A stretch of 42,193 bases of DNA from Flavobacteriales bacterium. GTDB taxonomy: Bacteria; Bacteroidota; Bacteroidia; Flavobacteriales_D; Crocinitomicaceae. Location: positions 1 through 42,193 of the forward strand of contig CANHHA010000023.1 in assembly GCA_947460825.1 (NCBI GenBank), in the 5' to 3' direction. Below the pieces are notes generated by a model, which was given only the letters and a program-made list of their open reading frames with translations, did not search any database and was not told the origin of the DNA. Both the position numbers and the translations under genes were made by a program. Below are positions 4,075 through 41,174 of this stretch, piece after piece. Position 1 is the stretch's first letter; every line of letters starts with the position of its first letter.

Positions 4075-4084
4075 AAATTCGCTG

Positions 4085-4092: not shown

Positions 4093-4253
4093 GATATTCT
4101 ACATGGATAGCCGCCTCAAACAAATGTTAAGAAAATGTAATGTTTAGTTTCATTTCTTGTCCAGTTGAATGCAAAAGACAAAGTAATCGAATCGATTTAA
4201 AAGGATACTTGGATTTATTATTGTACATTTAACAATTACTAAGCTTAATTGAT

Positions 4254-13968: not shown

Positions 13969-16323
13969 CTAAAACTCCATTTTTACATTCAGCACGGGCA
14001 TGATCCCAAACATATAAACGGTGCGGACCTTTTGCAGTATCGGGTCGTAATAATAACGGTTGATGTTTTGTTGGTTCGTAACGTTCTGAATTTCCGTGGA
14101 AAAAACCAAGGAGCTCTTTGTGTAGTTGAAGCGAAGGGAAGCAGAAGCATCCGTTCGAAAATAGGCGGGTAACCTCGAAGCAAAAGGTTGTGCATCCAAC
14201 AACACTTCTTTTCCTTGCAATTTTGATTGCACTTCATCGATGGGAGTGTATCGATTACCTCCTCGGTAAATGATGCGCAAATTCAAAGCGAAACTGTTTT
14301 TGGCCGCCTTGCCAAAATTCCACTCGTATCCTAGCATCGCATTGAGCATTAGGTTGGCATTAAAACGAGTACTGCGCCATTCGACTTGCGGCTTACGGTA
14401 TTCTGATTGAAAAAAAGAAGCAGTTAGCATGTAAAAATAACGGTCAGTAAAGGAACGATCGAGGGTGAATTCTACGCCGTAATTCCTCCCCTCTCCCAAA
14501 TTGATAAAACGGTTTTGATTGACTCCCGTACCAGCGTTCAACAAACTCATTTCCTTGGTTTTTGCCGTATCCACCGGTACCTTAAAAAGGTACTGAAAAT
14601 AAACCTCCGATTTAAGTTTGAGTTTGTTATTGAAGGATAATTCATGGCCAAGAACTGCATGAGCAGCACGCGTTAGTGCGAGGTTTCTATTCGGTTGAGA
14701 AACCGCTCCATTGGCATCTTGCACTTGGCTTAAATACCACGAAACGGGCTCGCACCGGCTGTGCAACCCTGATGAGGCATTTACCGCATGCTTGGTGGAA
14801 AACCTGTAAGTCATGCCGAGGCGCGGTTCTATCGTTTGTTGCTTATTCAACAGCCAATAACTATGATGCAGTCCACCAACCCATTCAAGTCCCGAGCGTG
14901 GCCGCCACTTACATTGCACGTAGGTTTGTAACAAACCCGTATTTCCCGCATCGTCAACAAACGTTCCTAAAGCATTGGTGGAAAGGTCGAGTCCTTCCGC
15001 TTTAAGCTGGTAAAAAAGCTGGCTATAATATCCCCCAACCCGAAGGCTCGAGGAGGCCGAAAGTTTCCTGTGGTAATATACGTGGCTGCGCAACGCTTGA
15101 TATTTCAACCCTTCGCGGTACGTTAGTTGGGGTTGGTAGGTAGCATCCAACGAATCCATCCGATAGCGGTGTTCCTCCTTGGTCCAAGCAAGCACCGTTC
15201 GAAGGTAACCTTGGTCCTCTCCAATCTTTACAGTATGGGTTAAGCCCGACACCCCGATAAATTGGTAGGATTCGTCTTCGAAGCGATCGGAACGTTGAAC
15301 CCATTTCGAGGAATCTTTTTCCGCATAATCGCCGGCAGTGGACAGTCCCCCAATACCGAATAAGGTAAAATTTCCACAGCGTTTGGTAGGAAAATTCAGG
15401 TGATAGCTGAGGTCTTGAAACTGAGGAACCATCGCATTTTCCACCACGGGTAAGCCGATGGCGTTCAAAAAAATGAGGGTACTGTAACGGTAATTGATGA
15501 GGTATGAACTTCGGCTTTTCTTGGAAAATGGACCTTCTAAAGAACTTTGCAACCCTAGGATCCCCAACTGCACTGAAATTTCCTTTTTATCGCTGTTTCC
15601 TTTGCGAAATCGAATATCAAAAACACCTGAAAGTGCGTTACCGAATTCCGAGGGAAAAGCCCCTGAATAAAAACTTGAATTCGCCAAAACCTGTCCGCTT
15701 AAAATACTAATACCACCTCCGGAGCCTCCTTCGCCGTTGCTGAAATGGTTCGGATTGGGAATTTCAATGCCCTCCACCCGCCATAATATCCCCCTCGATG
15801 AATTACCACGCACCACAATTTCATTGCTCGCGTCGTTGGTTGCATTAACCCCGGCCAAAGACAAGGCCATCCGTGCGGGATCGTTGAAACTGGCAGCAAA
15901 GCGTTGTGTTTCTTCGGTGCTGAAGTTCTTCACACTGTTTACCGCGGCATCGTTGGTGCTCGACTTTTTCTGGACGCTTACCTCCGACATGGTTCTTCGA
16001 TCGGTTTTTTCCTGAAGTTCTAGGTTAAGTTCTAACTCTTTTCCGGAGGATAACAGCAGATTGCTCAGGTTTATGGTTTCATAGCCAAGGCATGAAACAA
16101 ACAGGTTGATTCTACCTACTGGAATCTGTTCGAATCGAAAATACCCTAATGAATCGGTTGTAGCATGCTTGACGCCATCATTGGACTCCACTTGCACTTT
16201 AACCCCGAAAAGCGGTTTATTCAATCCACTTTCTGTAATTCTTCCTTTTACGGTTTGGGTAAAGTTCTGAGCTAAAAAGGAAAAACTCAATACGCAACAA
16301 AAGAATACCCATGACCATCGCAT
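13969..16323 (-). CDS. TonB-dependent receptor with carboxypeptidase-regulatory-like domain
   Basis: A 784-residue outer membrane protein. The start is taken as the ATG at 16323, giving signal peptide MRWSWVFFCCVLSFSFLAQ; the upstream GTG at 16350 is rejected because a perfect -7 element lies between. Residues about 25-105 form the CarboxypepD_reg-like domain (VKGRITESGLNKPLFGVKV, GYFRFEQIPVG). Residues about 130-245 form the plug (MALSLAGVNATNDASNEIVVRGN, WRVEGIEIPNPNHF, ILSGQVLANSSFYSGAFPSEFG). The rest is a 22-strand-type barrel ending in phenylalanine (VLNVKMEF). No SusD-like partner is adjacent, so it is not a typical polysaccharide-utilisation SusC; the transported substrate is unknown. 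Confidence 0.92.
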   Translation of the reverse strand: MRWSWVFFCCVLSFSFLAQNFTQTVKGRITESGLNKPLFGVKVQVESNDGVKHATTDSLGYFRFEQIPVGRINLFVSCLGYETINLSNLLLSSGKELELNLELQEKTDRRTMSEVSVQKKSSTNDAAVNSVKNFSTEETQRFAASFNDPARMALSLAGVNATNDASNEIVVRGNSSRGILWRVEGIEIPNPNHFSNGEGGSGGGISILSGQVLANSSFYSGAFPSEFGNALSGVFDIRFRKGNSDKKEISVQLGILGLQSSLEGPFSKKSRSSYLINYRYSTLIFLNAIGLPVVENAMVPQFQDLSYHLNFPTKRCGNFTLFGIGGLSTAGDYAEKDSSKWVQRSDRFEDESYQFIGVSGLTHTVKIGEDQGYLRTVLAWTKEEHRYRMDSLDATYQPQLTYREGLKYQALRSHVYYHRKLSASSSLRVGGYYSQLFYQLKAEGLDLSTNALGTFVDDAGNTGLLQTYVQCKWRPRSGLEWVGGLHHSYWLLNKQQTIEPRLGMTYRFSTKHAVNASSGLHSRCEPVSWYLSQVQDANGAVSQPNRNLALTRAAHAVLGHELSFNNKLKLKSEVYFQYLFKVPVDTAKTKEMSLLNAGTGVNQNRFINLGEGRNYGVEFTLDRSFTDRYFYMLTASFFQSEYRKPQVEWRSTRFNANLMLNAMLGYEWNFGKAAKNSFALNLRIIYRGGNRYTPIDEVQSKLQGKEVLLDAQPFASRLPAYFRTDASASLRFNYTKSSLVFSTEIQNVTNQQNINRYYYDPILQKVRTVYMFGIMPVLNVKMEF

Positions 16324-16327
16324 GGTG

Positions 16328-16335
16328 CAAAGGTA
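16328..16335 (-). promoter_or_regulatory. -7 promoter element TACCTTTG for the TonB-dependent receptor
   Basis: A perfect TAnnTTTG on the minus strand, with only four bases (CACC) between it and the ATG at 16323. It decides the start codon against the GTG at 16350 and predicts a nearly leaderless mRNA. Confidence 0.55.
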
Positions 16336-16343
16336 CATTACCC

Positions 16344-16370
16344 AAAGCACGAAAAGAACCTTTGTGCTTT
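16344..16370. promoter_or_regulatory. Hairpin between the giant gene and the TonB receptor promoter
   Basis: Arms AAAGCAC and GTGCTTT (seven perfect pairs) flank a 13-base loop. It lies 75 bases after the giant gene's stop and just upstream of the receptor's -7 element. There is no T-run on the minus-strand exit side, so it is a poor intrinsic terminator; a binding site for a regulator of the receptor gene is equally possible. Confidence 0.35.
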
Positions 16371-16444: not shown

Positions 16445-19400
16445 CTATCGGAGTAATACAATATGCCCACTCTTAATAATAAGCTCCTGGTTGATGTCTC
16501 TCGCAACAATTTTCCATGAGTATACCCCCACCGAACAATCTTGCCCTCGGTACTTACCATCCCAGGCCTTCGATAAATCAGTCGTTGTAAATACTTCCTC
16601 GCCCCAGCGATTGAACACACTTACCTCGATAGAATACATCGCCGATGCCACGGGGATCCAAGAATCATTCTCACCATCCGCATCTGGAGTAAATGCGTTG
16701 GGCACATAAAGCGTTGGAGATAAATTAAGCTGAATCACTTGATATGCCGTATCAGAACATCCGAAATTATTATATACAACTTGACTTATGGTGTATTCTC
16801 CCGCCTCACTCGAACCATAAGAATACTGTTCCAAGGTAATGCCAGAAACCGTACCGTTGCCCAAATAATACTCGCCCGTATTATAGTTCTGCGCCGTGTT
16901 TGTGATTTCAACAAAGGGGTCCTCTGTGTAAACAATGGATGGAAAAACCGTAAAGCCCGCTGTAGGTTGCTGATAAACGGTAATTAAGGCCTGATTTATT
17001 GTGGTATCCACACACCCAAACATATTCGTTGTTATTAACGTAACATCATATACCCCCGGTTCTGTATAGGTATGCGTTGGATTCAAGGATTGAACGGAGG
17101 TTCCATCTCCAAAATTCCAAAAATACAGATTGCCATTGGTGGAATTATTTGCAAATGAAACCGTTAGATCTTCACACCCTGCGGTTGTATCTGGTATAAA
17201 TTGGGAGTTAGGAATTGGATTTACAATGATGCTTTGGAAGGTCGTATCCCCACAACCAAATTGATTATACCCCATTAACACCAATAAATAATTTCCAGTT
17301 TGGGTATACGTGGCCGTAGGCTCAAATTGGTTCGAACCACTTCCGTTCCCAAAATCCCAATCATATACAATCGCTCCTTGACTATTATTCACCGGAGTAA
17401 CCAAGAAAGGCACGACGCAAGACGTTTTATCAGTAACGTCAAAATCAACCACAGGCACATCATGAACAACCACAGTAAAATTAGCGGTATCCGCACAACC
17501 GAAGGTATTCAACGCAATAACCTGCGGAGTATACGATCCGGGATTTGGATAATTATGCGCACTACTCGGTGCGATTCCAATACTTCCATCGTCATAATCC
17601 CAAAGCGCAGAAGTCGCGGTTCCAGAAAGTTCATTAAAGGAAACCGCTAAAGGCGCACATCCTTCGTAAACTAAGGTGTCATACGCTAATACAGGACTCG
17701 GAATAGAATAAACCAGTTGATAGGCAGTATCCGTGCAACCGTTTGCAGCAGAAGTACCGATCAAAGAAACCAAGAACGTGCCTCCGCTCGCATATACATG
17801 CCCCGGACTATATACATTAGAGCTAAGCCCATCTCCAAAACTCCATACCGTGTTCGAAAGCTGGGAAGAAATGTTGGTAAACTGAAATACTTGCCCCGTA
17901 CAAAGCGTGTCGTTAACAACAGTAAACGCAACCTGTGGCTTAGCAAGTACCGTAATGGTAATGGTGGAGGTATCAAAGGAACAGCCATTATCTACCACCA
18001 ATTGCGCAACAAAAGTTCCTGATGAAGTATACAAATGACTCGGACTTTGGGTATTTGAAACTTGTCCATTCCCAAAACTCCAAAAATAATTTAGGTTCCC
18101 ACCCTGCGAATAGTTCGTAAACTGGACGTTCAAGGGTGCGCACCCTACCGTTGGATTCGTGTTGAAGAAACTAGAGACGGTATTGGGGAAAACATGTATG
18201 GGAAAATAACTCGTATCCGATCCGCAGGCATTTATAGCAATTAATGCCACATTAAAAATGGTGTCATTTGGACCGTAAACAAAGGTATGGGTTGGACTTA
18301 CTTGCGTGCTAAATTGACCATCCCCAAAATTCCAGATATAATTAGTTGGACTCCCCAGGGATAAGTTTTGGAAACCAACAGGTAAAGGCGAACACCCCGT
18401 ATTTACGGTAGTAGCAAACGAAGCAATCGGTAATGGATGAACAAGAATCGTATCCAAAAAGTTAGTTGTTCCGCATAAATTTGTAACCGATAAAGAAATT
18501 ACATAATTAGTATCTTGTAATAATGGAGGCTGAAAAGTAAGCGCACCCGGATTTTGCGCACTTGAAAAAGGACCGTTTGCGGGGAATCCGAAATTCCAGA
18601 AATACGATGATATATTGTATCCGTTTGACGTGTTGTTAAAATTGACGTTTAAAGGTCCGCAGCCGTTGTTGGGCGATGGTATAAAAGACGCAGTTGGAGT
18701 TGTTACGATATGTATGTTGTTGGTGATTGAATCCATGCACCCCTGCGGCGACGTCGCCGTAAGTGTTACCGTATAATTTCCACCGGCAGGAAACTGATAA
18801 ATAGGATTGAATTGGGTGCTTGTTGCGCCATTACCAAAATTCCATAAATAACTGTTGGCGCCTTGGGAATTGTTAACAATACTTACCGTAGTATTGATGC
18901 ATTTTAAGGTGTCCATTGTGAACGACGGTATTGGTAATGGATTCACCGTTACTTGACGGGTCGCTGAATTAATACAACCTGTTACCGGATGAGTATAACT
19001 GTACGTTAACGTGTGAGGACCTGCTCCAGCAACCGCCGGACTAAACGTAGCTAATTGACCATTGGTAATGCCTGTACCCGACCAAGTTCCTCCAGCAGGA
19101 GAAAATCCTGTCAAGTTAAACGGCGGTGTTGTTATACAAGTATTTACCACAGGTCCAGGGGTGATTTGCGGCAATGGATTCACCGTTACTGGAATCGTAT
19201 CTTGAGTTCCTGGACATACTCCAAAAACAGGTGTAACCACGTAGTAGAAATTCTGTACAGCAAAAGTAGCATTGGTAATTTGCTGATTAATGTTGGCGCC
19301 GCTCCCCGCTTGTTGACCGCTGAGTTGCGCATTTGCGCTGACCGTCCAATTAAACAATGCGCCGGGCGAATTGCTTGCCAGTTGAACATTGACCGATTGA

Positions 19401-22400
19401 CCACTGCAAATAGTTACCGAATTTTGACTCGGTATAACGGTAGCCACCGGGTTAACAATAATGGTAGCAGATACCAATGCACCATCACAACCATTAGCGC
19501 TGGGAGTTATCTGATAGGTAACTTGGCTTGGATTCAGCGTATTATTGGAGAGCTGTTGAATAATTGGATTGGATATCCCGCTTCCAGCACCTTGAATCCC
19601 TGGTCCAGGGTTTACCGTGTACGCATAGGTGGTATTCAATACGTTAGAACTTAAAGCAATGTTGGTGCTTGTACCACTACAAATGGTGTTATTTGCCACA
19701 TTCGTAGTTAAGATTGGAGTTGGTTTTACCGTAATGGGGACATTTACGGCGGCACCAACACACCCATTCAACGACGGAGTAATCGAATATGTGATCACTT
19801 GATTACCTGTGGAGCTATTGGTGAGTAATTGAGCAATGGTATCATTAGACCCCGAAAACGCACCAATAATATTATTGTTTGCACTTACGGTCCATCCGTA
19901 CGTTATCCCCGGCATATTTCCACTTAATATCAAACTCGTACTTGTCCCACTACAAATGGATTGTGATCCCGGATTAACACTCGCCACCGGAATTGGATTT
20001 ACCGTAACCAATGCTTGCTCAGAATTTCCAACACACCCAAGCGCAGAGGGGGTAATGGTATAACTTACTGACCCGGCGGCATTTATTGTTGATGTAAGCG
20101 TCTGACTTAAGGTATACACCCCATTTACCGAAGTACCATTTCCATTGCTTGCACCGCTTACGTTGGTAGAGGCCTGAATCCAAGTTAAGGTGGTAGTCGC
20201 AACGTTTGAAGTACATAACACGCTTGCTGTAGTGCCCGAACAAAGGGTCAGAGCCTGCGGATTTAGCGTTAATACAGGTGTCGGATTTACGGTAACGGTG
20301 AAAGACATGTTTGATCCTGAACAACCGTTCAATGTTCCATTAACCGAAATCGTCCCTACAAATGCCCCCCCACTTACATTCACGGGTGCTTGCCAACCCG
20401 AAATGCTTCCTGAACCATTACCGATTAATCCAATGGTTTGATTAGAATTAGTCCATACAAATGAAGCTCCTGCAGGGGTTGATGTAAAGTTAATGGTTGG
20501 TATTGCCTGTCCTGGACACACCACAATGTTATTCACTTGAGTTACTGAAGGATTCGGATTTATGGAGATGGTAGCAGTCACCGGAGAACCAGTACAATTG
20601 TTCGCAGACGCAGTAACCGTGTATACGACCGTTCCTTGGGTGAGTAGGTTATTCAATAAGATTTGATTCAGACATGAGCCCGTTCCGTTTTGTGCCCCCG
20701 TTATTCCATTCGTAGCAAGTGCAGTCCACGTGAAATTCGCATTGGCTACAGGCGAGGTAAAACATATGCTCGCTGTATCGTTGGAACAAATGATTGGACT
20801 TGAAACAGTGGCCGTAACCTGCGGTAAAGGATTCACAGTAATGGAATAGGTTCCCCCAGTACCATTGCAGGCGATGTTGTTGTTGGTGTACGTTAAGGTG
20901 ACAAGATAACTCAAGACAACAGGAGCTGCAGTATTGTTGGTAAGTGTTTGTACAGGAATGGAATTTGTTCCAGAAGTTGCCATTCCAGATATCCCAGCAG
21001 GTTGATTCGCAGACCATGTATATGCAATGTTTCCTGGAATTCCTGCATTCAAATTAGATTGTAAACTAACCGCTACCGAATTACTTCCTGAGCAAAGCAC
21101 TTGTGGATTTTGTGAAAAACCGAGAACAGGAATCGGGTTCACCGTGATTGAGTAGGTAGCAGCTTGTCCCTGACAATTCCCTGCTTGCGTTGCTACATTC
21201 ACGGTATAAACTACGGTTAAGGGCCCTTGTGTATTATTCACCAAGGATTGCGCAGGAATGGTATTCACACCACTGGCTAATGCCCCCGTAATCCCCGCAG
21301 GAATATTAGCAGACCATGATATTTGTGCATTCGGAGTTGGGCTTAGAATATTAACTACCTGTGAGGTTGTACCAGAACAAAGGGTCTGATTCAATTGGCT
21401 AAATCCAACGGAAGCCACCGGATTTACCCATATGCTATAGGTTCCAGATTGACCAGGACATCCATTGTTTGGTCCCGGACCATTGGTGGTAATGGTGTAC
21501 GTAAGTTGTTGAATCTGGGCAGAATTATTGGAAAGCACCTGATTAATGGTGGACCCCGTTCCGTTCGTTGCGCCACCAATCAACGGATTAGAAGAAATGG
21601 TCCATGCGTAGGATGTATTCGCGACGTTTGATGTAAGCGAAGCGACCGCGGCTACTCCACTGCAAATCGTATCATTAGGCGGAGTAATGGTAAGTCCTGG
21701 ATTTGGAAACACGGTAATTTGACCGTTAGCAACTGGTCCGGCACACCCATTAATTACCGCGGAACTGGTGATTCCAATGACCGCTGAAGTATTTAAGTTG
21801 GACGTAATTGGCGCTGCGGCAATCGTATTTCCACCCTGTAGAGACATCCCTGACAGCCCGTTCGGAACTGATGCTGCCCAGGTGATGGAAGCCCCAACAA
21901 CATTGGAAGTTAAATTGACTAATTGGCTTGAAGCTCCCGAACAAAGAGATTGTGAGGGCACAGAATATTGCACGCTTGCCACAGGCTCAACCGTAATTGG
22001 TAAGGTGGTAGTTTGACTCGGACAAGAACTCCCCGGAGGTGCCGTTGCTGTTACGGTATAGGTAACTGTACCCTGCGTATTTCCTGAATTAATGAGGGTT
22101 TGTGAAATTTGAGGACCATTCACATTAACTGCACCTGTAATCCCTTGGGAGGCCGCAACCGTTGTAGTATACGTTAAGCCTGCGGTGTTGGAGGAAATGG
22201 TGATCTGTGCGTTAGCACCCGAACATAGGCTGCTATCAATGGCTACTACAGAAATTCCATTTTGTGGACTAACCGTTATGGTATAGGTAGATGAAATACC
22301 AGGGCACACTGCTCCACCACCCGTTGACGCCGTTGCGGTAAATGTTGCGGATAAATTGCCTTGCGTATTATTAAGTAAGGTGTAGGCAGGAATTTGAGTT

Positions 22401-25400
22401 GTACCAGACAAGGTATTAACGCCTTGTAAGCCCCCTGGAACTGATACGTTCCAGGCGATCGTTGCATTGTTGGTACTCGTGGTTAGATTGACCAAAGTGG
22501 TCGTAGTCCCCGAGCATATGGTTTGATTTCCTGTGGAGAAAATTACCGTTGGAGAAGGATTAACCGTAATGGTATAGTTTAAAGCTGCTCCTGAACAGCC
22601 GTTGGCCAATGGTGTAACCGAATACACCAACTGTAGCGGATTAGCTGTGGAATTAATTATGGTCATAGGACTTAAACTACCCGTACCACTTGCCGTAAAC
22701 CCACTCAGACCGGCCGGTGGTGTAATAGCTGTCCAAGTGAATGAGGTTCCTTGAACATCCGCTGTGAAGGCAGCTTGCGTTGTTGGAAGACCGCTACAAA
22801 CTGTTTGTACACCCGGATTGTTAAGCACAGGTATGGGATTCACATTAAACGTATAGGTCACCGAGGCACTAGGACATTGGTTCGTTGAAATGGCTGATAA
22901 GGTGTATTGTACCGATTGTTGCGTGGATACATTGTTTGAAAAGGTAATCGCTGGAATCGGATTATTACCTGAACCTACAGGATGCCCCGACAAGCCACCA
23001 CCTGCGGTCAAGAAATTCCAAGTGAGCGTCGACCCAGGAAGATTCGATGTTATATTTACCGATGCAGAAGGAGCACCTTCACACAGCGTTTGTTGCAAAG
23101 TAGCATTCGTAATCTGAGGGGTTGGGAATACAGTAACTACGATCGTGTCGTTAACCCCTGCACACGCATTCCCAATGGTCGGGGTAATGATAATTAACCC
23201 AACAATTGGGTTCACCGTATTATTTATCGGTGCATTCCAAGGAACTAAATTTCCCTGTCCAGAGGCTGGTATTCCAATATTCGTATTGGAATTGGTCCAC
23301 GTAAAGGATGCACCTGCAGGAATACTCTGAAATGCTGGAGGAGCAATGTTATTGCCCGGACAAATCGAAATATTGTTCAAACCTGTCATTTGAGCAACCG
23401 GGTTAACACTAATCGTTGTGGTGACCGCAGAGCCGCTACAGGTATTTGCCGTTGGTACGATGGAATAAGTAACCGTTCCTGTGTTGGAAGTTGCGTTAAG
23501 CAAGGTATTAGAAATAGTAGAACCAGAACTATTGGTGTTTCCTGTAATTCCCGCTGAAGCATTAGAAGTCCAAGCATAGGTTGTTCCCGCAACATTTGAC
23601 GATAAACTCAGCGTTACGCTCGATCCAGAACAAATCGTTGATGCAGGTGAAACCGTAGAGGTGACCGTTGGAATCGGATTGACTGTAATTGTGTACGTTG
23701 AGGCAGCTCCCTGACATCCACCGTTGGTGGTATTGGCCTGTGCAGAAATGGTCACGGTTTGAGGTGTATTCGTTCCTTGCGTTAAGGTAAATGATGGGAT
23801 GGTTGCACTTGAACCGCTGTTTGGATTCACTCCCGACACATTATTCGAAGCAGTAACAGTCCATGACCAGGTAACATTGGGAGTTGTACTTGTCATGTTA
23901 ATCGCCAAGGAGCTTTGACCACTGCAAATGCTTTGGCTAGGTCCTCCCGTAAACTGAAGCGCCGGGGCCGGCATCACCGTTATAGAGAGCGTATCGGGTT
24001 GTCCAGTACAACCTAATGCATTCGGAGTAATTAAATAATTTAATGTGTAAGGCTGACTTCCGGAATTGGATACAACAGCAGCTGTTAATTGACTAGACCC
24101 GGAAGGAGCAAGAAATCCTGTTACCGTATTTGGAATATTCACATTCAACAAAGACCACGTAAAACCTCCTCCGGCAACGTTGTTCTGATAACTGGACAAG
24201 GTTGTACTGGTACCCGAACAAATAACTTGATCCACAACATTCGAAACGGATGGATTAGGATTAATGTTGACCGTGTAAGTTACAGCAGTGCCCGCACAGT
24301 TGTTAGTACTGGTTGGAATGATCGAATAAGTTATGGTTTGTGCAGTATTTCCAGAATGAGCTACCGTCATCGGTGGTAGTGGATTGTTTCCATTACCCGC
24401 ATTAAAACCGCTCAAACTCGCTCCAGAAGCCAAGTAACTCCATGCAAAGCTTGTTCCGTTTAAGTTCGACGTGAAGGTAATTGGAGAAGTAGCAACACCT
24501 TCACATACCGTTTGATTCAACGGAGAATTAGTTACTGTCGGAGTTGGATAAACCGTAATGGAAAAACTGGTAGAAGTTCCAACACATCCGTTATAAGTTG
24601 GTGTAACCGTCACCGTAGCCGTAAGGTTGGCTAGCGTATTATTGGCAGGAGCATTCCATGAAGCAATACTTCCATTACCCGATCCAGGAATTCCGACTTG
24701 TTGGTTTGAATTCACCCAAGAGAAACTGGCAGGAGACGGAACTGATCCAAACGCAGCAGGACTCAACGCTTGCCCCGGACATGCCATTAAATTGGCCATT
24801 GGGTTCATAACGGCAACAGGATTTACGTAAACTGGAACATTAAGCACGGTTCCATTACATACACCAATTTGCGGAGTCACAGTATACGTAACTAATGCAA
24901 TGGATGAATTTGAGTTAGCTAAAGTCTGCTGAATCGCAGCAGATGGAGCGCCAGAAGGCGAAGCGCCCGTTACGCCATTGGGTGCAACAACGGTCCAAGT
25001 GTATTGCACCGCGGGTGTTACAGAACTCAAGGCTACGTTCAACTGCGTATTGCTACACAGCGTATCATTGCTTACAAAAGTTGCAAGGGCCGTTACCGTT
25101 GGGTTAACGGTAATCGTATACGTGTTCGGTACCCCTGGACAAACAGCATTTCCAGTGGTAGATGCGCTGGCGGAAATCGTAAATGATACCGGTTGGTTGG
25201 TATTATTGGTTAATCCTGTAAATGCAGGAATGATCGAATTATTTCCAGAAGTCGGCAGTACTACACCGAGTCCATTGGGTAATGGATTCTGAATGGCCCA
25301 ACTGTAAGTGGTATTTGCTGTTGCTGTTGAAATGGTGACTGCTTGTGAATTTGCATTATTACAAACGGTTTGATTCGGTATCGAAAAAGTAACCGCTGGA

Positions 25401-28400
25401 GCAGGATTCACCGTAATCGAATAGATTGCAGATGCGCCACTACAACCGTTCGCGGTTGGCGTTACGGTGTAGTTCAAGGTGTAAGGATTCGTGCCGGAAT
25501 TGGTAATCGTAGCCACTGGAATTTGACCACTTCCGTTGCTTGGATAGCCAGTCACCGTTGCAGGAACACCACCCGCACCTTGCAAGACATAGGTAAAGCT
25601 TCCACCCGCCACCGAGTTCGTAAATGCACTTACCCCTGTAGCCACTCCCCCACACACCGTTTGGTTTTGAGAAAGCGTCACCTGTGGAATAGGATTCACA
25701 GTAATGGTGTAAGTAATTGCTGGACCGCTACAACCGTTTCTTGTCGGCGTCACGGTATAGGTCACCGTTTGAACAGCATTCGAAGCGTTAGTGATCGACA
25801 TTACAGGTAAATTTCCACTGCCGGATGCCGTAAACCCAGTGACCGTTGCCGCACTTCCAAGGCCAGTCCAGGCATACGTCGTACCCGCCAAATTTGAAGT
25901 CCATGTTACCGCAGCAGAGTTCGCTCCTGAGCATAGGCTTTGAGATAAGTTGATGTTAGTTACCGTTGGTGTTGGGTTGATCGTTACCGTAAAGTTGTTC
26001 GCGGTTCCAACACATCCATTAAAGGTAGGCGTTACCGTAACCGTTCCCGTTATTGGTGCATTGGTGTTATTTGCAGGTGCCGTCCAAGGGGCAAGCTGAC
26101 CGTTTCCGGGACCAGCAATTCCTATTTGCGCGTTGCTAACCGTCCATGCAAAACTTGCACCGTTCGGCGTTGAAACAAACGCGGTCGGTGTAATGATAGC
26201 TTGTGGACAAACCGTTGGAGAGGTGAGCGCAGCAATAGTTGCCACCGGATGAACATAGGCCACTACTTGAATGGGTTGTCCCGGACAAGCTCCCGCGACA
26301 ACCGGAGTAATCGTATACGTAACATTTCCGTAATTCGTGGAGCTGTTGACTAAGGGTTGTTGTATACTGATCCCGGGATTTACCGAATTTGCACCACCTG
26401 AGGTGTTTAACCCATTCACAGCGGTCCATGTAAAGGACGTGTTTGGTGTATTGGATGTTAATGAAATATTGATGGTGCTATTACTGCATATGGTATCATT
26501 GCTTACAAAGGCAGCAACCGCAGTTGGTACTGGATTTACGGTAATGGTATAACTGGAGGGCGAGCCAGCACATTGTGAAGCACCACCTGTTGTTGCTACC
26601 GCAACCACGGTTAACACCAATGGAGTAATGGTATTGTTGGTTAAGTTTTGAAATACTGGAATGGTGGAAGTTCCCGAGGTTACATTGACATTTCCTAACC
26701 CTGCTGGCACTCCACCCGGAATAGTCCATGTAAAAGTTACCCCTGCAGTAGAACTACCCAGCGTTACTAAATTGGTGTTTTGCCCGGAACAAATCGATTG
26801 ATTTCCCGGTGAGAACGTAGTCACAGGAGCCGGATTCACAGTGATGGTATACGAACCTGTAGATCCACTACAACCGTTCGCTGTTGGCGCAATGGTGTAG
26901 GTTAAGGTATAGGGATTTGTTCCAGCGTTATTAATGGTTGCCACTGGAACTTGTCCGTTTCCATTCGTAGGGTATCCGGTAAGGGTAGCAGGAACCAATC
27001 CCGGGCTCTGCAGGGCATAAGTATAACTTCCTCCAGCAACGGAATTCGAAAACGAACTAAGCGCAGTAGCTACCCCACCACAAACCGTTTGATTTTGGGA
27101 GAGCGTAAGCTGGGGGATTGGATTTACGGTGATGGTATAGGTAATCGCTGGACCACTGCACCCATTTCTTGATGGCGTTACGGTATAGGTTACAGTTCCA
27201 ATGCTGTTGGAATTGTTGGTTAAGGTTAAAGCCGGTAGATTCCCATTCCCGGAAGGGGTAAACCCAGTAAGCGTTGCTGCACTTGCAACCGCGGTCCACG
27301 CATAGGTCGTACCCACCAAATTAGAAGTCCATGTTACAGCAGCTGTGTTAGCACCTGAACAAATGCTTTGAGTAAGGGCGTTATTCGTGACCGTTGGCGT
27401 TGGGTTGATCGTAACCGTAAAACTGTTCGCCGTTCCAACACAGCCATTGTACGTAGGGGTCACCGTTACAGTCCCTGTTATCGGTGCATTGGTGTTATTT
27501 GCAGGTGCCGTCCATGGAGCAATTTGACCGTTACCTGGACCCGCAATACCTATTTGCGCATTGCTCACCGTCCATGCAAAACTTGCGCCGTTGGGAGTCG
27601 AAACAAAAGCGGTCGGAGTAATTGTCGCTTGAGAACAAACGGTAGGTGATGTCAAGGCTGCTATCGTTGCAACGGGATTCACATAGGCTAATACTTGTAG
27701 GGGCGATCCAGCGCAGGCCGAGGCGCTTGGAGTAACCGTATACGTAACGTTTCCTACAGCGCTAGAACTGTTCGTAAGTGCCTGGTTAATGGTCGGTGAT
27801 GGTGCTGCTGAATTTTGACCTCCCGTAACCCCTGCCCCATTCGCTGCGGTCCAGATAAAAGTGGTACCTGCGGTGGTTGAACTCAAGGCAATGTTGATAT
27901 TCTGACCACTGCAAACCGTATCGTTGCTCACAAAAGTTGCGGCCGCAATCGGAGATGGATTTACCGTGATCGTGTAATTAGCCGTTGCCCCCGGACATTG
28001 AGCAGGGCCTGAGGTGGATGCTTGCGCTTGAAGCGTCACCGTAATTGGGGCCGCAGTATTATTGGTGAGGTTAGAATAAATAGGGATACTTGAAGTTCCA
28101 GATGTTGGGTTGAAATTACCCAAGCCTGCTGGAACCGCACCTTGAAGGCTCCAGGAAAAACTTACCGAAGGAGTCGCACTACTCAACGTAACGAGCGTAG
28201 TATTCTGTCCCGTACAAATAGTTTGATTCCCCTGGGAGAACGCAGTCACTGGAGCCGGATTTACGGTGATGGAATAAGTGCCCGTAGATCCACTGCAGTT
28301 GTTGGCCGTTGGAGTAACCGTGTAATTTAGGGTGTAAGGACTCGTGCCGCCGTTGTTAATTGTTGCAGCTGGAATCTGGCCGTTTCCATTGGTTGGATGA

Positions 28401-31400
28401 CCGGTCACAGTTGCCGGTGGAGGATTTTGAAGCGCATAGGCAAGGGTACCTCCGGCCACAGAATTGGAAATCGTAGACACTAAGGTCGTTTGTCCACCGC
28501 AAATGGTTTGATTGGCGGAGAGGGTTAGTACAGGGGTTGGATTGATGGTAATCGTATAGGTAAATGCAGGTCCAGGACAACCGTTTCGTGTAGGAATTAC
28601 CGTGTACGTTACCGTTTCGGGAGAATTACCGCTGTTGGTAATGGTCATGACCGGCAAATTACCGGTTCCTGGCGTTGTAAAACCGGTCAAGTTGGGTGAA
28701 CTTGCAACCCCTGTCCAGGAAAAGGTAGTTGCCCCCACACTTGCCGTAAACGTTACAGCAGCCGAAGCAACACCTGAACAACGCGTTTGTGTAGAGGGAG
28801 TATTAACAATAGAGGGCGTTGGATTGATTGTTATAACAAAACTCGCCGTGGTGCCCTGACAGTTATTAAACGTAGGAGTTACGGCAATGTTGGACGAAAC
28901 GGTGGTATTGGAATTATTCGCAGGAGCGGTCCAAGGACTCATTTGACCAGTTCCATTCGGTGGGGAACCAATCCCTGCAGGGTTACTGCTCACCCAACTG
29001 AAAGTTGCTCCGTTTGGATTGGAAACGAAGGCCGGCGGTGTAATGGTCGCACCCGGACATACCGTTATTGGACCGAACGGTCCCACCGTAGCCACAGGTT
29101 GCACCACCACTTGTGTTGTGACTGGCGAACCAGGACAACCATTCGATGATGGGATGAACGTGTAGGTTACGGTTTGAGGTGCATTGGTGTTATTCGTGAT
29201 GGCCGTCGTTAACGTAGCGCTATTGCTGCCCGGATTAAGGGTGCCGCTCGCTGTTCCTGTGACACCTGCGGGAAATGAAGCTGTCCAAGCAAACGAAGTT
29301 GGATTAATTGTTGAAGTTACGTTGATAACCGCATTGCTTCCGGAACAAATGGGTCCTACCGATTGCGGAGCGGTTGCTACCGGTAAGGGGTGAACAGTAA
29401 CGTTAATCGTAGCAACAGCTGCAGTACACGGCCCAGCAGGATCATTGGTAGTTAATGTAAGGGTTGCGGTTCCTGTAAAATTTGCAGGGGGCGTCCAACT
29501 TGAGGAGAGCGAATTAACATTAGAAAAAGTACCCCCAATGCTTGAAGACCATGAAGCACTGGAAGCAGCGCCGCCAATACTTCCGTTCAAAGACAAACTT
29601 CCATTCATACACACACCATTCGGATATACTCCAGCGCTCGCTGTTGCCAACGGATTAAAAACTATGGTTGTAGTGGTAGAAACAGTTTGACAGGGCGCTA
29701 GTGGCTGCCCAGAGGTTAAGGTTAAAATAATGTTGCCCGAATAGCCGATAGGAGGAGTATAAATCGCATTTAACGCACCTGTATTTGCACCACCCAAACC
29801 AGGTATGCTAAAACTCCCCCCTGCAACATTGGCGGTCCAATAACCGGTAACCACTCCTCCGGTAACGTTTCCGTTAAGTGGCACTGGGGTGTTCAAGCAA
29901 AACGGGCCATAAGACCCGGGAGTAACCACCACAGGATTGTTGACCACCACGGTTGACGCCACTGTTGTTGGTCCGCATTCATTGGTTGCGATAAGGTTGA
30001 ACGGAAAGGGACTACCAATAGAAGAAGGGTACGTTACACTTCCCGGATTCAGGGTGTTGGCGGTGGTAGGAGATGGGATACTCCCTGCAGGAATGGTGTT
30101 TCCAGGGTTAAAATTCCAAGCGTAAGTGTTCGGCGAAGTGCCATAACAGTTGTTCATGACAATGGTGGGAGAAATTGAACCGCCCGCACAAATGGGCCCT
30201 ACAGGGTTGATTGAAAATTGAGGAGGCCCTTTGATGGTAATTTGTTGTGAGAAGGTGGTTTGAGCACAAGAGGCTCCAAGCACCTGATTATTTAATCCAA
30301 GGGTTAATTGAATGGTGTAAACCCCAGGACCGTTGAAACTAAATGTGGGGTTGGCGAGCGCTGAGTTGGCGGGTTGTACCGACGGGCCTCCGTTAAAATT
30401 GCAATTCTGAGGATTGGTGGAAGTGACAGACCAACTGAATACATTCGTCAGGTTACAGCCTGGAGTGCTCGAAGTATTGTTCGGTGTAATGTTTACCGGC
30501 GCACAAGCCGTAGCTAGAGGCAAGGTGAAATTCGCTACGGTGGCAGCAACAACACAGATGTTATAAACCACGGAGTCCATTCCGCAATTATTCCCAAGAT
30601 GTAATACTACTTGATAATTTCCCGGAACGGTCCAAGTAACAGGAAGTGACGCAGAACCGTTATTCCAAGAAAAAAAGTCATAACCGTTAGGTAAATTGGG
30701 CAAAAAACCAGCAGGACTACCCATCGTACCAGAAGTGGTATACCCAGCATTAGGCAAAATTGTCCAATACCGTCCAAAAAGTGAATCGCAACCACCATTG
30801 CTAACATTTGTGCCATGATTGGCCACATCATTGAACGTTATCGGCTGGTTAACGCAAATTACGTTGGTGTTAGGATTTGCACTTATAACCGCATTCACAG
30901 AGCCCCCCGCAGCGATAGGTCCGATGGCAGCAAACGTCCCTTGAGGACTACAAGCATTGCTCGCCAATACCTGTATGGAAAAAGAGTTGTTGTAGGTCTG
31001 ATTCTGAATTGTGGTATTAACGCCGCACGAAGTTTGAGAAAAGACATGATTGATCGTTTGCGGATTGGGATTCAATCCGTTAAGGACGGTGGTAGCTGTT
31101 CCATCATTGTAAATGATTTGAAATACCGTACCGGGAGGTACAGGACCTTGGGTTCCCACTTGAAATGAATACGGATTTGGTAAGCACGATGACGAACCTG
31201 AACCGGTTAATGAAATAGTGGGGGCATTATTCCCTACATAAACCAAATAGTTTTGAATAAAAGTACAGCCTCCGGGAAATGTCACCTGATAGGCCATGTT
31301 AAAATAACCTTGAGTTGCGTATGTATGGCTAAAAGGCGGAGGGGATGATCCGTTTGCTGTAGCGTCGCCCCAAATTACACTGTAGGTCGTCCCTACAGGA

Positions 31401-31861
31401 TGTGAGGCTATCGTTGGATCCGCGAATGCAAAATTACCCGAATTGAAACCACATCGTCGAAAAATCGTCATTCCATTCAATGTTGAAGTGGAATAACCAG
31501 CGGCCGCGTTACTGGTTAAGGTGAGCGATGGGTTAAAGTTGTTTGCAACTACCGTAACATTAACCTGCGAAGTAACCCCGTTGCCCAAATTCAGGGTTGT
31601 GGTATGATTCCCCGGGTTGTTATAGGTGATATTATGCGGCCCAACTTGGTTGGAATTGTTGGGATTACCCCCCTGAAAAGTCCAATTGTAATTTGTTGAA
31701 GCATTGGTACCCGTGGAAGTATTGGTATATAACACCGTAGACCCCTGACAAACCGTTATTGTATTGTTGTTAGAAGCGGGTGACGTGGAGAAAGATGCGG
31801 CTTGTGCCAGCGCCAACAAGGGCATAAACAACAAAAAAACTAACGCCTTCAACGGATTCAT
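16445..31861 (-). CDS. Giant multidomain PKD-like surface protein with T9SS type B sorting domain (5138 aa)
   Basis: Signal peptide is residues 1-20 (LFMPLLALAQA). By eye about 54 immunoglobulin-like domains follow. Residues about 20-920 hold nine varied PKD and PKD-like domains. Residues 923-3293 hold 25 PKD-like domains arranged as five copies of a five-domain unit. Residues 3294 to about 4305 hold eleven more PKD-like domains. Residues about 4306-5050 hold nine classical PKD domains (WNFGDG, WSFGNG, WDYDDG motifs). Residues about 5051-5138 are the type B sorting domain (NAFTPDADGEND, VFNRWGEEVF, WDGKYRG, GHIVLLR). Most PKD-like domains have one cysteine in a CSG motif and one in an NGCxG motif, probably a disulfide. 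The build fits a long adhesin filament or gliding adhesin like SprB. No SprF gene is adjacent; the nearest is at 243-1223. A weak -7-like TAATTTCG lies 12 bases before the ATG. Confidence 0.95.
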   Translation of the reverse strand: MNPLKALVFLLFMPLLALAQAASFSTSPASNNNTITVCQGSTVLYTNTSTGTNASTNYNWTFQGGNPNNSNQVGPHNITYNNPGNHTTTLNLGNGVTSQVNVTVVANNFNPSLTLTSNAAAGYSTSTLNGMTIFRRCGFNSGNFAFADPTIASHPVGTTYSVIWGDATANGSSPPPFSHTYATQGYFNMAYQVTFPGGCTFIQNYLVYVGNNAPTISLTGSGSSSCLPNPYSFQVGTQGPVPPGTVFQIIYNDGTATTVLNGLNPNPQTINHVFSQTSCGVNTTIQNQTYNNSFSIQVLASNACSPQGTFAAIGPIAAGGSVNAVISANPNTNVICVNQPITFNDVANHGTNVSNGGCDSLFGRYWTILPNAGYTTSGTMGSPAGFLPNLPNGYDFFSWNNGSASLPVTWTVPGNYQVVLHLGNNCGMDSVVYNICVVAATVANFTLPLATACAPVNITPNNTSSTPGCNLTNVFSWSVTSTNPQNCNFNGGPSVQPANSALANPTFSFNGPGVYTIQLTLGLNNQVLGASCAQTTFSQQITIKGPPQFSINPVGPICAGGSISPTIVMNNCYGTSPNTYAWNFNPGNTIPAGSIPSPTTANTLNPGSVTYPSSIGSPFPFNLIATNECGPTTVASTVVVNNPVVVTPGSYGPFCLNTPVPLNGNVTGGVVTGYWTANVAGGSFSIPGLGGANTGALNAIYTPPIGYSGNIILTLTSGQPLAPCQTVSTTTTIVFNPLATASAGVYPNGVCMNGSLSLNGSIGGAASSASWSSSIGGTFSNVNSLSSSWTPPANFTGTATLTLTTNDPAGPCTAAVATINVTVHPLPVATAPQSVGPICSGSNAVINVTSTINPTSFAWTASFPAGVTGTASGTLNPGSNSATLTTAITNNTNAPQTVTYTFIPSSNGCPGSPVTTQVVVQPVATVGPFGPITVCPGATITPPAFVSNPNGATFSWVSSNPAGIGSPPNGTGQMSPWTAPANNSNTTVSSNIAVTPTFNNCQGTTASFVITINPTPSIVNTPSTQTRCSGVASAAVTFTASVGATTFSWTGVASSPNLTGFTTPGTGNLPVMTITNSGNSPETVTYTVIPTRNGCPGPAFTYTITINPTPVLTLSANQTICGGQTTLVSTISNSVAGGTLAYALQNPPPATVTGHPTNGNGQIPAATINNGGTSPYTLNYTVTPTANNCSGSTGTYSITVNPAPVTAFSQGNQTICTGQNTTLVTLSSATPSVSFSWSLQGAVPAGLGNFNPTSGTSSIPIYSNLTNNTAAPITVTLQAQASTSGPAQCPGATANYTITVNPSPIAAATFVSNDTVCSGQNINIALSSTTAGTTFIWTAANGAGVTGGQNSAAPSPTINQALTNSSSAVGNVTYTVTPSASACAGSPLQVLAYVNPVATIAALTSPTVCSQATITPTAFVSTPNGASFAWTVSNAQIGIAGPGNGQIAPWTAPANNTNAPITGTVTVTPTYNGCVGTANSFTVTINPTPTVTNNALTQSICSGANTAAVTWTSNLVGTTYAWTAVASAATLTGFTPSGNGNLPALTLTNNSNSIGTVTYTVTPSRNGCSGPAITYTITVNPIPQLTLSQNQTVCGGVATALSSFSNSVAGGSYTYALQSPGLVPATLTGYPTNGNGQVPVATINNAGTNPYTLTYTIAPTANGCSGSTGSYTITVNPAPVTTFSPGNQSICSGQNTNLVTLGSSTAGVTFTWTIPGGVPAGLGNVNVTSGTSTIPVFQNLTNNTITPLVLTVVAVATTGGASQCAGSPSSYTITVNPVPTAVAAFVSNDTICSNSTINISLTSNTPNTSFTWTAVNGLNTSGGANSVNPGISIQQPLVNSSTNYGNVTYTITPVVAGACPGQPIQVVAYVHPVATIAALTSPTVCPQAIITPTAFVSTPNGASFAWTVSNAQIGIAGPGNGQLAPWTAPANNTNAPITGTVTVTPTFNGCVGTANNFTVTINPTPTVTNINLSQSLCSGANSAAVTWTSNLAGTTYAWTGLGSAATVTGFTASGSGNLPVMSITNASNAVQTVTYTVTPTRNGCSGPAITYTITVNPIPQVTLSQNQTVCGGVATGVSAFTNSVAGGSFTYVLQGAGGVPATVTGYPSNGSGQIPVATITNSGTNPYTLNYTVTPTANGCSGASAIYSITVNPAPAVTFSIPNQTVCNNANSQAVTISTATANTTYSWAIQNPLPNGLGVVLPTSGNNSIIPAFTGLTNNTNQPVSFTISASASTTGNAVCPGVPNTYTITVNPTVTALATFVSNDTLCSNTQLNVALSSVTPAVQYTWTVVAPNGVTGASPSGAPSAAIQQTLANSNSSIALVTYTVTPQIGVCNGTVLNVPVYVNPVAVMNPMANLMACPGQALSPAAFGSVPSPASFSWVNSNQQVGIPGSGNGSIASWNAPANNTLANLTATVTVTPTYNGCVGTSTSFSITVYPTPTVTNSPLNQTVCEGVATSPITFTSNLNGTSFAWSYLASGASLSGFNAGNGNNPLPPMTVAHSGNTAQTITYSIIPTSTNNCAGTAVTYTVNINPNPSVSNVVDQVICSGTSTTLSSYQNNVAGGGFTWSLLNVNIPNTVTGFLAPSGSSQLTAAVVSNSGSQPYTLNYLITPNALGCTGQPDTLSITVMPAPALQFTGGPSQSICSGQSSLAINMTSTTPNVTWSWTVTASNNVSGVNPNSGSSATIPSFTLTQGTNTPQTVTISAQANTTNGGCQGAASTYTITVNPIPTVTSTVSPASTICSGSSVTLSLSSNVAGTTYAWTSNASAGITGNTNSSGSTISNTLLNATSNTGTVTYSIVPTANTCSGSAVTTTISVNPVAQMTGLNNISICPGNNIAPPAFQSIPAGASFTWTNSNTNIGIPASGQGNLVPWNAPINNTVNPIVGLIIITPTIGNACAGVNDTIVVTVFPTPQITNATLQQTLCEGAPSASVNITSNLPGSTLTWNFLTAGGGLSGHPVGSGNNPIPAITFSNNVSTQQSVQYTLSAISTNQCPSASVTYTFNVNPIPVLNNPGVQTVCSGLPTTQAAFTADVQGTSFTWTAITPPAGLSGFTASGTGSLSPMTIINSTANPLQLVYSVTPLANGCSGAALNYTITVNPSPTVIFSTGNQTICSGTTTTLVNLTTSTNNATIAWNVSVPGGLQGVNTLSGTTQIPAYTLLNNTQGNLSATFTATASTGGGAVCPGISSTYTITVSPQNGISVVAIDSSLCSGANAQITISSNTAGLTYTTTVAASQGITGAVNVNGPQISQTLINSGNTQGTVTYTVTATAPPGSSCPSQTTTLPITVEPVASVQYSVPSQSLCSGASSQLVNLTSNVVGASITWAASVPNGLSGMSLQGGNTIAAAPITSNLNTSAVIGITSSAVINGCAGPVANGQITVFPNPGLTITPPNDTICSGVAAVASLTSNVANTSYAWTISSNPLIGGATNGTGSTINQVLSNNSAQIQQLTYTITTNGPGPNNGCPGQSGTYSIWVNPVASVGFSQLNQTLCSGTTSQVVNILSPTPNAQISWSANIPAGITGALASGVNTIPAQSLVNNTQGPLTVVYTVNVATQAGNCQGQAATYSITVNPIPVLGFSQNPQVLCSGSNSVAVSLQSNLNAGIPGNIAYTWSANQPAGISGMATSGTNSIPVQTLTNNTAAPVVLSYLVTLTYTNNNIACNGTGGTYSITVNPLPQVTATVSSPIICSNDTASICFTSPVANANFTWTALATNGITGAQNGTGSCLNQILLNNLLTQGTVVYTVTASANNCTGSPVTATISINPNPSVTQVNNIVVCPGQAIPTINFTSTPAGASFVWTNSNQTIGLIGNGSGSISGWQAPVNVSGGAFVGTISVNGTLNGCSGSNMSFTVTVNPTPVLTLNPQALTLCSGTTASVLCTSNVATTTLTWIQASTNVSGASNGNGTSVNGVYTLSQTLTSTINAAGSVSYTITPSALGCVGNSEQALVTVNPIPVASVNPGSQSICSGTSTSLILSGNMPGITYGWTVSANNNIIGAFSGSNDTIAQLLTNSSTGNQVITYSITPSLNGCVGAAVNVPITVKPTPILTTNVANNTICSGTSTNIALSSNVLNTTYAYTVNPGPGIQGAGSGISNPIIQQLSNNTLNPSQVTYQITPSANGCDGALVSATIIVNPVATVIPSQNSVTICSGQSVNVQLASNSPGALFNWTVSANAQLSGQQAGSGANINQQITNATFAVQNFYYVVTPVFGVCPGTQDTIPVTVNPLPQITPGPVVNTCITTPPFNLTGFSPAGGTWSGTGITNGQLATFSPAVAGAGPHTLTYSYTHPVTGCINSATRQVTVNPLPIPSFTMDTLKCINTTVSIVNNSQGANSYLWNFGNGATSTQFNPIYQFPAGGNYTVTLTATSPQGCMDSITNNIHIVTTPTASFIPSPNNGCGPLNVNFNNTSNGYNISSYFWNFGFPANGPFSSAQNPGALTFQPPLLQDTNYVISLSVTNLCGTTNFLDTILVHPLPIASFATTVNTGCSPLPVGFQNLSLGSPTNYIWNFGDGQFSTQVSPTHTFVYGPNDTIFNVALIAINACGSDTSYFPIHVFPNTVSSFFNTNPTVGCAPLNVQFTNYSQGGNLNYFWSFGNGQVSNTQSPSHLYTSSGTFVAQLVVDNGCSFDTSTITITVLAKPQVAFTVVNDTLCTGQVFQFTNISSQLSNTVWSFGDGLSSNVYSPGHVYASGGTFLVSLIGTSAANGCTDTAYQLVYSIPSPVLAYDTLVYEGCAPLAVSFNELSGTATSALWDYDDGSIGIAPSSAHNYPNPGSYTPQVIALNTFGCADTANFTVVVHDVPVVDFDVTDKTSCVVPFLVTPVNNSQGAIVYDWDFGNGSGSNQFEPTATYTQTGNYLLVLMGYNQFGCGDTTFQSIIVNPIPNSQFIPDTTAGCEDLTVSFANNSTNGNLYFWNFGDGTSVQSLNPTHTYTEPGVYDVTLITTNMFGCVDTTINQALITVYQQPTAGFTVFPSIVYTEDPFVEITNTAQNYNTGEYYLGNGTVSGITLEQYSYGSSEAGEYTISQVVYNNFGCSDTAYQVIQLNLSPTLYVPNAFTPDADGENDSWIPVASAMYSIEVSVFNRWGEEVFTTTDLSKAWDGKYRGQDCSVGVYSWKIVARDINQELIIKSGHIVLLR
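21983..29095 (-). repeat. Five tandem 1.42-kb super-repeats inside the giant gene
   Basis: Units, in reading direction: 29095-27674 (1422 bases), 27673-26246 (1428), 26245-24818 (1428), 24817-23399 (1419) and 23398-21983 (1416), i.e. 474, 476, 476, 473 and 472 codons. Each unit holds five PKD-like domains in the same order: one opening VATIAALTSPTVC or similar with an APANN motif, one opening TPTVTN...CSG, one with NQTVCGG and NSVAGG or a variant, one with GNQSICSG, and one opening with variants of AAFVSNDTIC. All boundaries keep the frame. The first three domains of units two and three are the most alike. Confidence 0.9.
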
Positions 31862-37354: not shown

Positions 37355-37626
37355 CTAATTCGGGAAGTCTGACAGAAATCACCTTACTAAATGCAAAAAG
37401 CCATGACCAATTGTACCTGTTTCTGTTGTGAATTTATAGGTATAAACCCCATCCGCAAGCTCCTTTCCAGACGTATCTTTTCCATCCCAATTGTTTTGGT
37501 AATTAGCTGAAGAATAAACGAGATTCCCCCAGCGGTTTAGAATAATTACCTCGGTGTTTTTGGGTAAATTTTCAATTTCAAAAACATCATTGGCTCCATC
37601 CGAATTTGGGGTGATTACATTTGGGA
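37355..37626 (-). repeat. Type B sorting-domain DNA cassette, copy 1
   Basis: Includes the last 80 or so codons of its gene plus about 24 bases after the stop. Nearly identical to 38943-39191 across the whole sorting domain, and to 41175-41405 across the last two thirds and the downstream bases (both share CTAATTCGGGAAGTCTGACA after the coding end). Confidence 0.85.
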
Positions 37627-38938: not shown

Positions 38939-38942
38939 GGAA

Positions 38943-39191
38943 TTCACCGCACTAAATGCACAAAGCCATGACCAATTTCCCCTGTTTCCGTTGTGAATTT
39001 ATAGGTATAAACCCCATCCGCAAGCTCCTTACCAGACGTATCTTTTCCATCCCAATTGTTTTGGTAATTTGCTGAAGAATAAACGAGATTCCCCCAGCGG
39101 TTTAGAATAATTACCTCGGTGTTTTCGGGTAAATTTTCAATTTCAAAAACATCATTGGCTCCATCCGAATTTGGGGTGATTACATTTGGGA
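38943..39191 (-). repeat. Type B sorting-domain DNA cassette, copy 2
   Basis: The 3' part of the 38944-40641 gene. Nearly identical to copy 1 (37355-37626) up to and including the [16 protein letters not shown] region, then the two genes become unrelated. Confidence 0.85.
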
Positions 39192-40641: not shown

Positions 40642-40649
40642 CTCGGATA

Positions 40650-40657
40650 CAAAATTA
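40650..40657 (-). promoter_or_regulatory. -7 promoter element TAATTTTG for the 38944-40641 operon
   Basis: A perfect TAnnTTTG on the minus strand, eight bases before the ATG at 40641. No clear -33 motif in the A+T-rich sequence upstream. The 151-base gap 40642-40792 also serves the divergent small membrane protein gene, for which no promoter match was found. Confidence 0.5.
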
Positions 40658-40792
40658 CATACTTAAATTTAAAATTATTACTCCTTTTGTTTAGTTTCTT
40701 TGCTTATTGAATATTCAACTGCCAGGAAATATAATTGAAAACAAATCCGATCTTTAGCTGTTTCATTCAGAACGTAATGAATTATTAAATCG

Positions 40793-41119: not shown

Positions 41120-41174
41120 TAGAATTGTCGCCAAGCAAAATCCTAAAACTTTTTGTTTTATTAAACTCTAAAAA

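Follow-up and report, generated by a model that had tools for sequence, protein, structure and literature searches.

A five-domain block as the likely unit of length change in a giant, putatively type IX-secreted protein of a Flavobacteriales bacterium

The contig CANHHA010000023.1 of the Flavobacteriales bacterium assembly GCA_947460825.1, all 42,193 nucleotides (nt) of which were analysed (hereafter the window), contains a gene for a protein of 5138 residues, in which PKD-like domains of five distinguishable types (a to e) recur in the same order. The question raised by this locus is whether the five-domain block, rather than the single domain, is the unit by which the protein changes its length and, if so, what keeps the order of its domains. 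With a probability of roughly 0.8, our answer is that this is a giant protein exported by the type IX secretion system (T9SS), whose blocks are added, removed and overwritten as wholes by recombination in register, in steps of about 472 residues.

The five-domain period of the giant gene

Autocorrelation of the protein sequence gave a peak at a lag of 476 residues with multiples at 949/952 and 1425, confirming the five consecutive five-domain units that a first-pass annotation of the window had described. The same arrangement is evident from pairwise comparison of the 25 array domains, as those at the same position share 49.1% identity on average (50 pairs), compared to 30.2% for domains of the same unit at other positions (50 pairs) and 30.6% for those sharing neither (200 pairs). 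Of the 25 domains, 24 find their best match within their own type, the exception being e4 (best match b2, 46%). In a tree of these domains, types a, d and e form supported clades and b a weak one (69/66); c forms none because c5 is unplaced. Labelling this tree by position requires four changes, the minimum possible, and labelling by unit 20, demonstrating the clustering by position that the annotation had predicted. None of 500 order shuffles of the 36 domains of this kind in the protein reached the lag-5 signal (z 10.1).

We compared 470 domains, every one of which contains exactly two Cys residues. Identity at lag 1 is 29.5% on average and 42.4% at most (450 pairs), lags 1-4 and 6-9 average 29-30%, and lag 5 reaches a mean of 52.0% and a maximum of 99% (370 pairs). 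Tandem duplication of single domains followed by convergence was ruled out by this lag analysis, in which only lag 5 reaches 52%, together with the domain tree. The types also carry diagnostic residues, eight in a, four in b, three in c, two in d and one in e.

Domain borders were set at a conserved [I/V]x[V/I]xP-like motif, placing the array at residues 918-3288 (nt 29110-21998). The units begin at 29110, 27688, 26260, 24832 and 23413, each 15 nt upstream of the start first proposed, which is a matter of border choice only, and the last unit ends at 21998; the measured lengths of 474, 476, 476, 473 and 472 amino acids (aa) agree with the 472-476 codons claimed. The annotated number of 25 PKD-like domains holds for the array but not for the protein, in which our own alignment counts 36 of this kind, with e0 before unit 1 and ten domains (x1-x10) after unit 5. 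The latter ten lie outside the five-domain period, with x3-x6 reading d-d-e-a. Pfam PKD_5 (PF19406), a family that describes single domains and not the block, matched 30 of the 36 domains, 27 of them above cut-off, and none of the five a-type domains exceeded it. At the DNA level, Tandem Repeats Finder (TRF) gave no period of the 1.4-kb type; its longest period was 500 nt, which is why the array went unreported. The units share 41-68% aa identity with one another, and the single domains a2 and a3 are 93% identical.

Block number and recombination among relatives

Relatives were collected by searching with unit 3 in 60 genomes including the window's own (matches in 40), with the N-terminus in 86 genomes of the genus, own included (matches in 72, of which 11, again with the own genome, cover most of the query at ≥57% identity), and with residues 1-820 against proteins, where 1105 candidates were scored and the 46 matches and the query made up 47 proteins. 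The genome and protein sets overlap in part and their counts are not independent (for example, P0012 and G061, whose contigs have the same length of 52358, are probably the same gene). Typing with type-specific hidden Markov models identified the array in 20 of the 47 proteins, ten with four blocks (4666-4682 aa), six with five (5138-5162 aa) and four with six (5607-5626 aa). No partial block was observed in these 20 arrays, a constant e- or b-like domain before the array aside. Of the other 27 proteins, 21 have no complete block, and six are paralogues in which a-b-c-d comes after one or two full blocks. Among the genomes, complete four-block orthologous arrays are present in G001, G066, G061, G096, G082 and G079; in G004, four blocks and the start of a fifth are followed by the contig end, and the arrays of G098, G075, G087 and G007 are cut. 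The comparison of unit number called for by the first-pass annotation, performed here on assemblies, has thus returned four, five or six whole blocks, and together with the structure of the window gene it supports the block as the unit of duplication. A tree of the C-terminal 1000 aa requires six or more changes of block number, and so does a tree of the N-terminal flank. It is likely that the length of the giant protein changes one block (~472 residues) at a time by recombination.

Block number could instead reflect repeats collapsed or duplicated during assembly. Many of the sources are metagenome assemblies, the contigs that carry the array in G004 and G007 break off within it, and exact repeats of 133 nt and 68 aa, which raise the risk, occur in the G004 gene and in P0019, respectively. 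Collapse is unlikely in the window gene because its longest exact repeat is 32 nt, and those in G001, G061, G066 and G082 measure 17-28 nt. Moreover, the four-block alleles of close relatives miss a specific, recognisable sequence, b-e of window unit 1 and a of unit 2, rather than a random copy, and four, five and six blocks recur across many records. We consider an assembly artefact highly improbable.

Traces of recombination are visible at the junctions between blocks. Units 2-4 of G001 correspond to window units 3-5 at 92, 93 and 96% aa identity, and its unit 1 is a chimera, with domain a 81-94% identical at the nt level to window unit 1 and b-e 78-97% identical to window unit 2. The switch point lies in the ITINPTP linker in P0002, P0005 and P0012; the switch in P0002 resembles that of G001, and in P0005 and P0012 domain b is nearer to unit 3 and c is mixed. 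From the chimeric unit 1 it follows that the four- and five-block alleles of close relatives differ by one block removed or inserted in register. A second kind of trace was found in G004, where the synonymous divergence (dS) between units 2 and 3 is only 0.19 in a, 0.13 in b and 0.06 in c but 2.6 in d and 2.5 in e, a conversion-like tract that ends near a domain border. Together with the chimeric first block of the four-block alleles, this tract bears out the suggestion of the first-pass annotation that recombination at this period sets the length of the protein.

An ancient amplification, now frozen, with five blocks inherited without further exchange, would account for the one-to-one pairing of window units 1-5 with those of G004 (92, 84, 84, 88 and 91% aa identity, the fifth over 156 aa only) and for the clean orthology of units 4 and 5 in 12 close relatives (P0002-P0010 and P0012-P0014). 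It is contradicted by the a-c tract of G004, by the partial homogenisation of units 1-3 in G079 (dS 0.34-0.67 in b and c) and by the five blocks of the window against the four of P0010 and P0005, although the C-terminal 1000 aa of these proteins are only 0.03 changes per column apart. This explanation is hardly more probable than an assembly artefact.

Recombination in register is further reflected in exact DNA matches within eight arrays. Every one of the 53 matches of at least 20 nt connects equivalent positions of two domains of one type (35 in G079, 14 in G004, two each in the window and G001 and none in the other four arrays), and of 83 matches of at least 15 nt, 76 are in register, five join other types and two lie elsewhere. 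Mosaic structure extends beyond the array. In the N-terminal flank of the window protein, eight of nine alignment windows starting at columns 80-400 are nearer to G004 (76-88% nt identity) than to G001 (67-75%), and those starting at columns 480-840 are nearer to G001 than to G004. In P0013 and P0014, the N-terminal flank and unit 1 a-b are close to the P0011 type, everything between unit 1 c and unit 5 e, both included, is window-like, and the C-terminal 1000 aa fall outside the window's clade; unless these two near-identical metagenome records are misassembled, they represent a multiple mosaic.

Origin and consequences of the five-domain period

We propose that homologous recombination between blocks in register brings about gain, loss and overwriting of whole blocks. 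Because domains of different types share only ~30% of their residues, DNA would pair only at the five-domain period, which would in this way perpetuate itself. The earlier view of the block as a structural or functional module is compatible with the type-diagnostic residues, but DNA similarity alone would hold the register. In its stronger form, in which each type needs specific neighbours and selection purges any broken order, the module gains from orthologues in which the types can still be told apart although their units share only 40-60% identity with those of the window. The same protein, however, holds similar domains in a different order in x1-x10. We regard such selection as a plausible explanation, at somewhat less than even odds.

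Whether five is favoured elsewhere was addressed by the same lag analysis of 41 domain runs, with the 19 listed orthologues of the window excluded, a small, non-random sample gathered with queries from this protein. The lag-5 period is strong in L094, L097 and P0030, where 0-1 of 500 shuffles reached it, in L115, where three did, and likewise in the paralogues and in L091 and L092, which have the a-b-c-d-e order. In L094, from an uncultured Bacteroidetes, lag-5 identity is 74% against a shuffle mean of 51%; L097 and P0030 belong to Flavobacterium segetis and their order of types differs from a-b-c-d-e. The signal is weak or not significant in L116, L096, P0033, L093 and P0032 (reached by 30, 161, 250, 327 and 384 of 500 shuffles, respectively), and P0031 and L098 have a best lag other than 5. 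A five-domain period with another order of types, in L094, L097 and P0030 and more weakly in L115 and L116, hints that five is favoured, and a structural cause is possible; against this, the best lags of other giant proteins of this kind are 1, 2, 3 or 9. In a speculative reading that we consider rather unlikely, the five-domain period with a different order of types in other giants of Bacteroidota would make five domains a physical entity, perhaps a single turn of a rod that twists, in which case an added block would leave the tip in the same rotational register. Five giant proteins of the genus with domains of the same kind (L029, L030, L031, L033 and L034) have a best lag of 9 (0-1 of 500 shuffles).

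Each block would contribute a rod segment of five disulphide-pinned Ig-like (immunoglobulin-like) domains, about 20 nm in length, as an Ig-like domain is ~4 nm long, and the number of blocks would set the distance of the N-terminal part from the cell. The four-, five- and six-block alleles, some with a nearly identical C-terminus, represent a natural experiment on stalk length.

Bacterial surface proteins are known to vary in length when built of tandem repeats of high similarity. In the Periscope Proteins (SasG, Rib and Sgo_0707), as described in PMC8201768, the number of folded tandem repeats varies between homologues, which is proposed to arise from intragenic recombination; the present protein, also predicted to be at the surface, shares this variation. 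Unlike the Periscope repeats, which are highly identical (82-100% between adjacent SHIRT domains) and consist of one domain or an E-G5 pair, the unit here is five different domains whose order is kept across species, its neighbours are only ~30% identical with the lag-1 maximum given above, its blocks share 41-68% in the window, and the secretion route is another. According to the discussion of the same paper, large multidomain proteins usually hold adjacent domains of <50% identity, a pattern confounded by those Periscope Proteins whose repeats are very much alike. A block of several domains would escape this conflict, with neighbours dissimilar (≤42% identity) even where blocks are nearly identical, and misfolding between adjacent identical domains would be avoided as a side effect. 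The system bears on how large repetitive proteins escape the misfolding of neighbours. Duplication units of several domains have been described in Bjorklund 2006 (PMC1553488), with seven domains in nebulin and a peak at five in cadherin repeats, likewise seen as a peak in the autocorrelation of domain distance. The examples quoted there are eukaryotic and each was inferred from one sequence, unlike this bacterial case, in which junctions and tracts are visible between species and the blocks that vary among close relatives are those towards the N-terminus of the array.

Several observations weigh against recombination in register as the general explanation. With only 41-68% aa identity between them, most window units have not recombined with one another recently. 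The C-terminal and N-terminal orthologue trees disagree, and some changes of block number may therefore be exchanges between lineages that moved blocks instead of making new ones. In an rpoB tree, read on both strands, the window pairs with G061, and these two share a clade with G001/G007 and G082 that excludes G004. This puts the five-block window among four-block species (G001, G061 and G082) and the five-block G004 outside them. All block counts derive from assemblies, and the homologue search covers 1105 scored candidates. Finally, identity at lag 1 equals that at lags 2-4, i.e. direct neighbours show no extra divergence, and for this reason the avoidance of misfolding is consistent with a consequence and is not a proven cause.

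As for the direction of change, either five blocks are ancestral and one was lost at one junction, possibly repeatedly, or the window lineage acquired its five-block stretch from another lineage. The b-e part of unit 1, which is missing in the four-unit alleles of close relatives, resembles units of a second, paralogous giant gene present in several genomes of the genus, and its c-e segment sits among the units of that gene (98/95 support). Approximately unbiased (AU) tests of the c-e origin gave p = 0.042 for paralogue units as one clade and p = 0.0415 for all other units as one clade, with groups named after the tree had been seen. This marginal result provides a lead that unit 1 b-e may have come from the paralogue by transfer between genes. 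One could speculate that the block is an evolved exchange cassette, with neighbours too different to misfold together and blocks similar enough to recombine, and that blocks, or at least unit 1 b-e, move between the two giant genes of the genus, which we consider rather unlikely.

Architecture, export and genome context

The features of the giant gene are listed in Table 1.

Table 1 Features of the giant gene in the window (aa, residues of the protein)
Feature	Residues	Position (nt)	Strand	Remarks
Giant gene	5138 aa	16445..31861	-	ATG start, no internal stop
N-terminal region	1-820	29402..31861	-	signal-peptide-like start (from the sequence, putative); predicted all-beta; between-species mosaic
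Domain e0, e-like	821-917	29111..29401	-	in phase, precedes unit 1
Unit 1 (a1-e1)	918-1391 (474 aa)	27689..29110	-
Unit 2 (a2-e2)	1392-1867 (476 aa)	26261..27688	-
Unit 3 (a3-e3)	1868-2343 (476 aa)	24833..26260	-
Unit 4 (a4-e4)	2344-2816 (473 aa)	23414..24832	-
Unit 5 (a5-e5)	2817-3288 (472 aa)	21998..23413	-
x1-x10, ten more domains of the same kind	3289-4224	19190..21997	-	types d e d d e a e e e e
C-terminal Ig-like and PKD/PKD_4 domains		16706..19189	-	7 PKD_4 stretches
CHU_C / Bac_Flav_CTERM T9SS type B sorting domain		16460..16705	-	PF13585, TIGR04131

The C-terminal sorting domain scores 52.3 bits with PF13585 (cut-off 27) and 44.8 bits with TIGR04131 (cut-off 35), and SprA, the T9SS component examined, is present in the window's own genome at 2340 bits. 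As judged from sequence, the giant protein is likely to be exported via the T9SS and to be surface-exposed, and the earlier label of adhesin would be a presumptive one. Structure prediction of the N-terminal region gave an all-beta model (predicted local distance difference test, pLDDT, 80.5) with at least 50 matches in the PDB; among the matches listed, most are Ig-like or other beta-domain chains, and no lectin is named among the 50. A six-domain model forms a chain of beta domains (pLDDT 90.5; predicted template modelling score, pTM, 0.52).

The nearest solved relative, by both sequence and fold, is GhpA, the grappling hook protein A of Aureispira sp. CCB-QB1 (PDB 9flp, 9flw and 9fly), likewise a giant bacterial protein of similar Ig-like domains that is described as T9SS-secreted. 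By analogy, the present protein could form a secreted multimer for capturing prey or flagella, and the number of blocks would then set the length of the hook. The two share ~20% identity, a similarity within the domain family and not orthology. Of two further GhpA traits, heptameric assembly and an accompanying type VI secretion system (T6SS), the latter was sought through its sheath gene VipB (PF05943), the only T6SS gene searched for, with no match in the own genome; the control matched E. coli only (1 of 14), so that a divergent T6SS could escape. We regard a hook of this kind as doubtful.

The literature searched contained no account of super-repeats of five domains in T9SS giant proteins, which is no proof that none is in print, and the combination of a T9SS-type giant protein, readable recombination junctions and length change by a block of five types was not encountered there either.

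PKD_5 gave only one match outside the window (contig C34), on which grounds we rejected the idea that the window's own genome carries the array a second time. SprB repeats (PF13573) were absent from the giant protein at E 0.001 among the matches listed, and gave 133 matches in the window's genome among 150 scored of 207 candidates; reading frames of 3885 and 1718 aa rich in this repeat are located on G000:C24 and G000:C44, respectively. The plus strand of the window carries at 243-2841 a PorP/SprF gene and, after it, an OmpA/PD40 gene in which there is a weak SprB repeat. PorP/SprF proteins often partner T9SS type B cargo. Three adjacent genes at 37379-42191 on the minus strand encode CHU_C sorting domains, and a PKD_4 domain is present in two of the three. 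Directly downstream of the giant gene is a minus-strand gene of 793 aa (13969-16350) with a CarboxypepD_reg domain and an OMP_b-brl_3 match below cut-off. In G007 (C41, L028 4470-5702), a transporter-like open reading frame of 410 aa, named by eye, lies instead between the giant gene and a 150-aa gene, suggesting that the spot downstream of the giant gene is variable.

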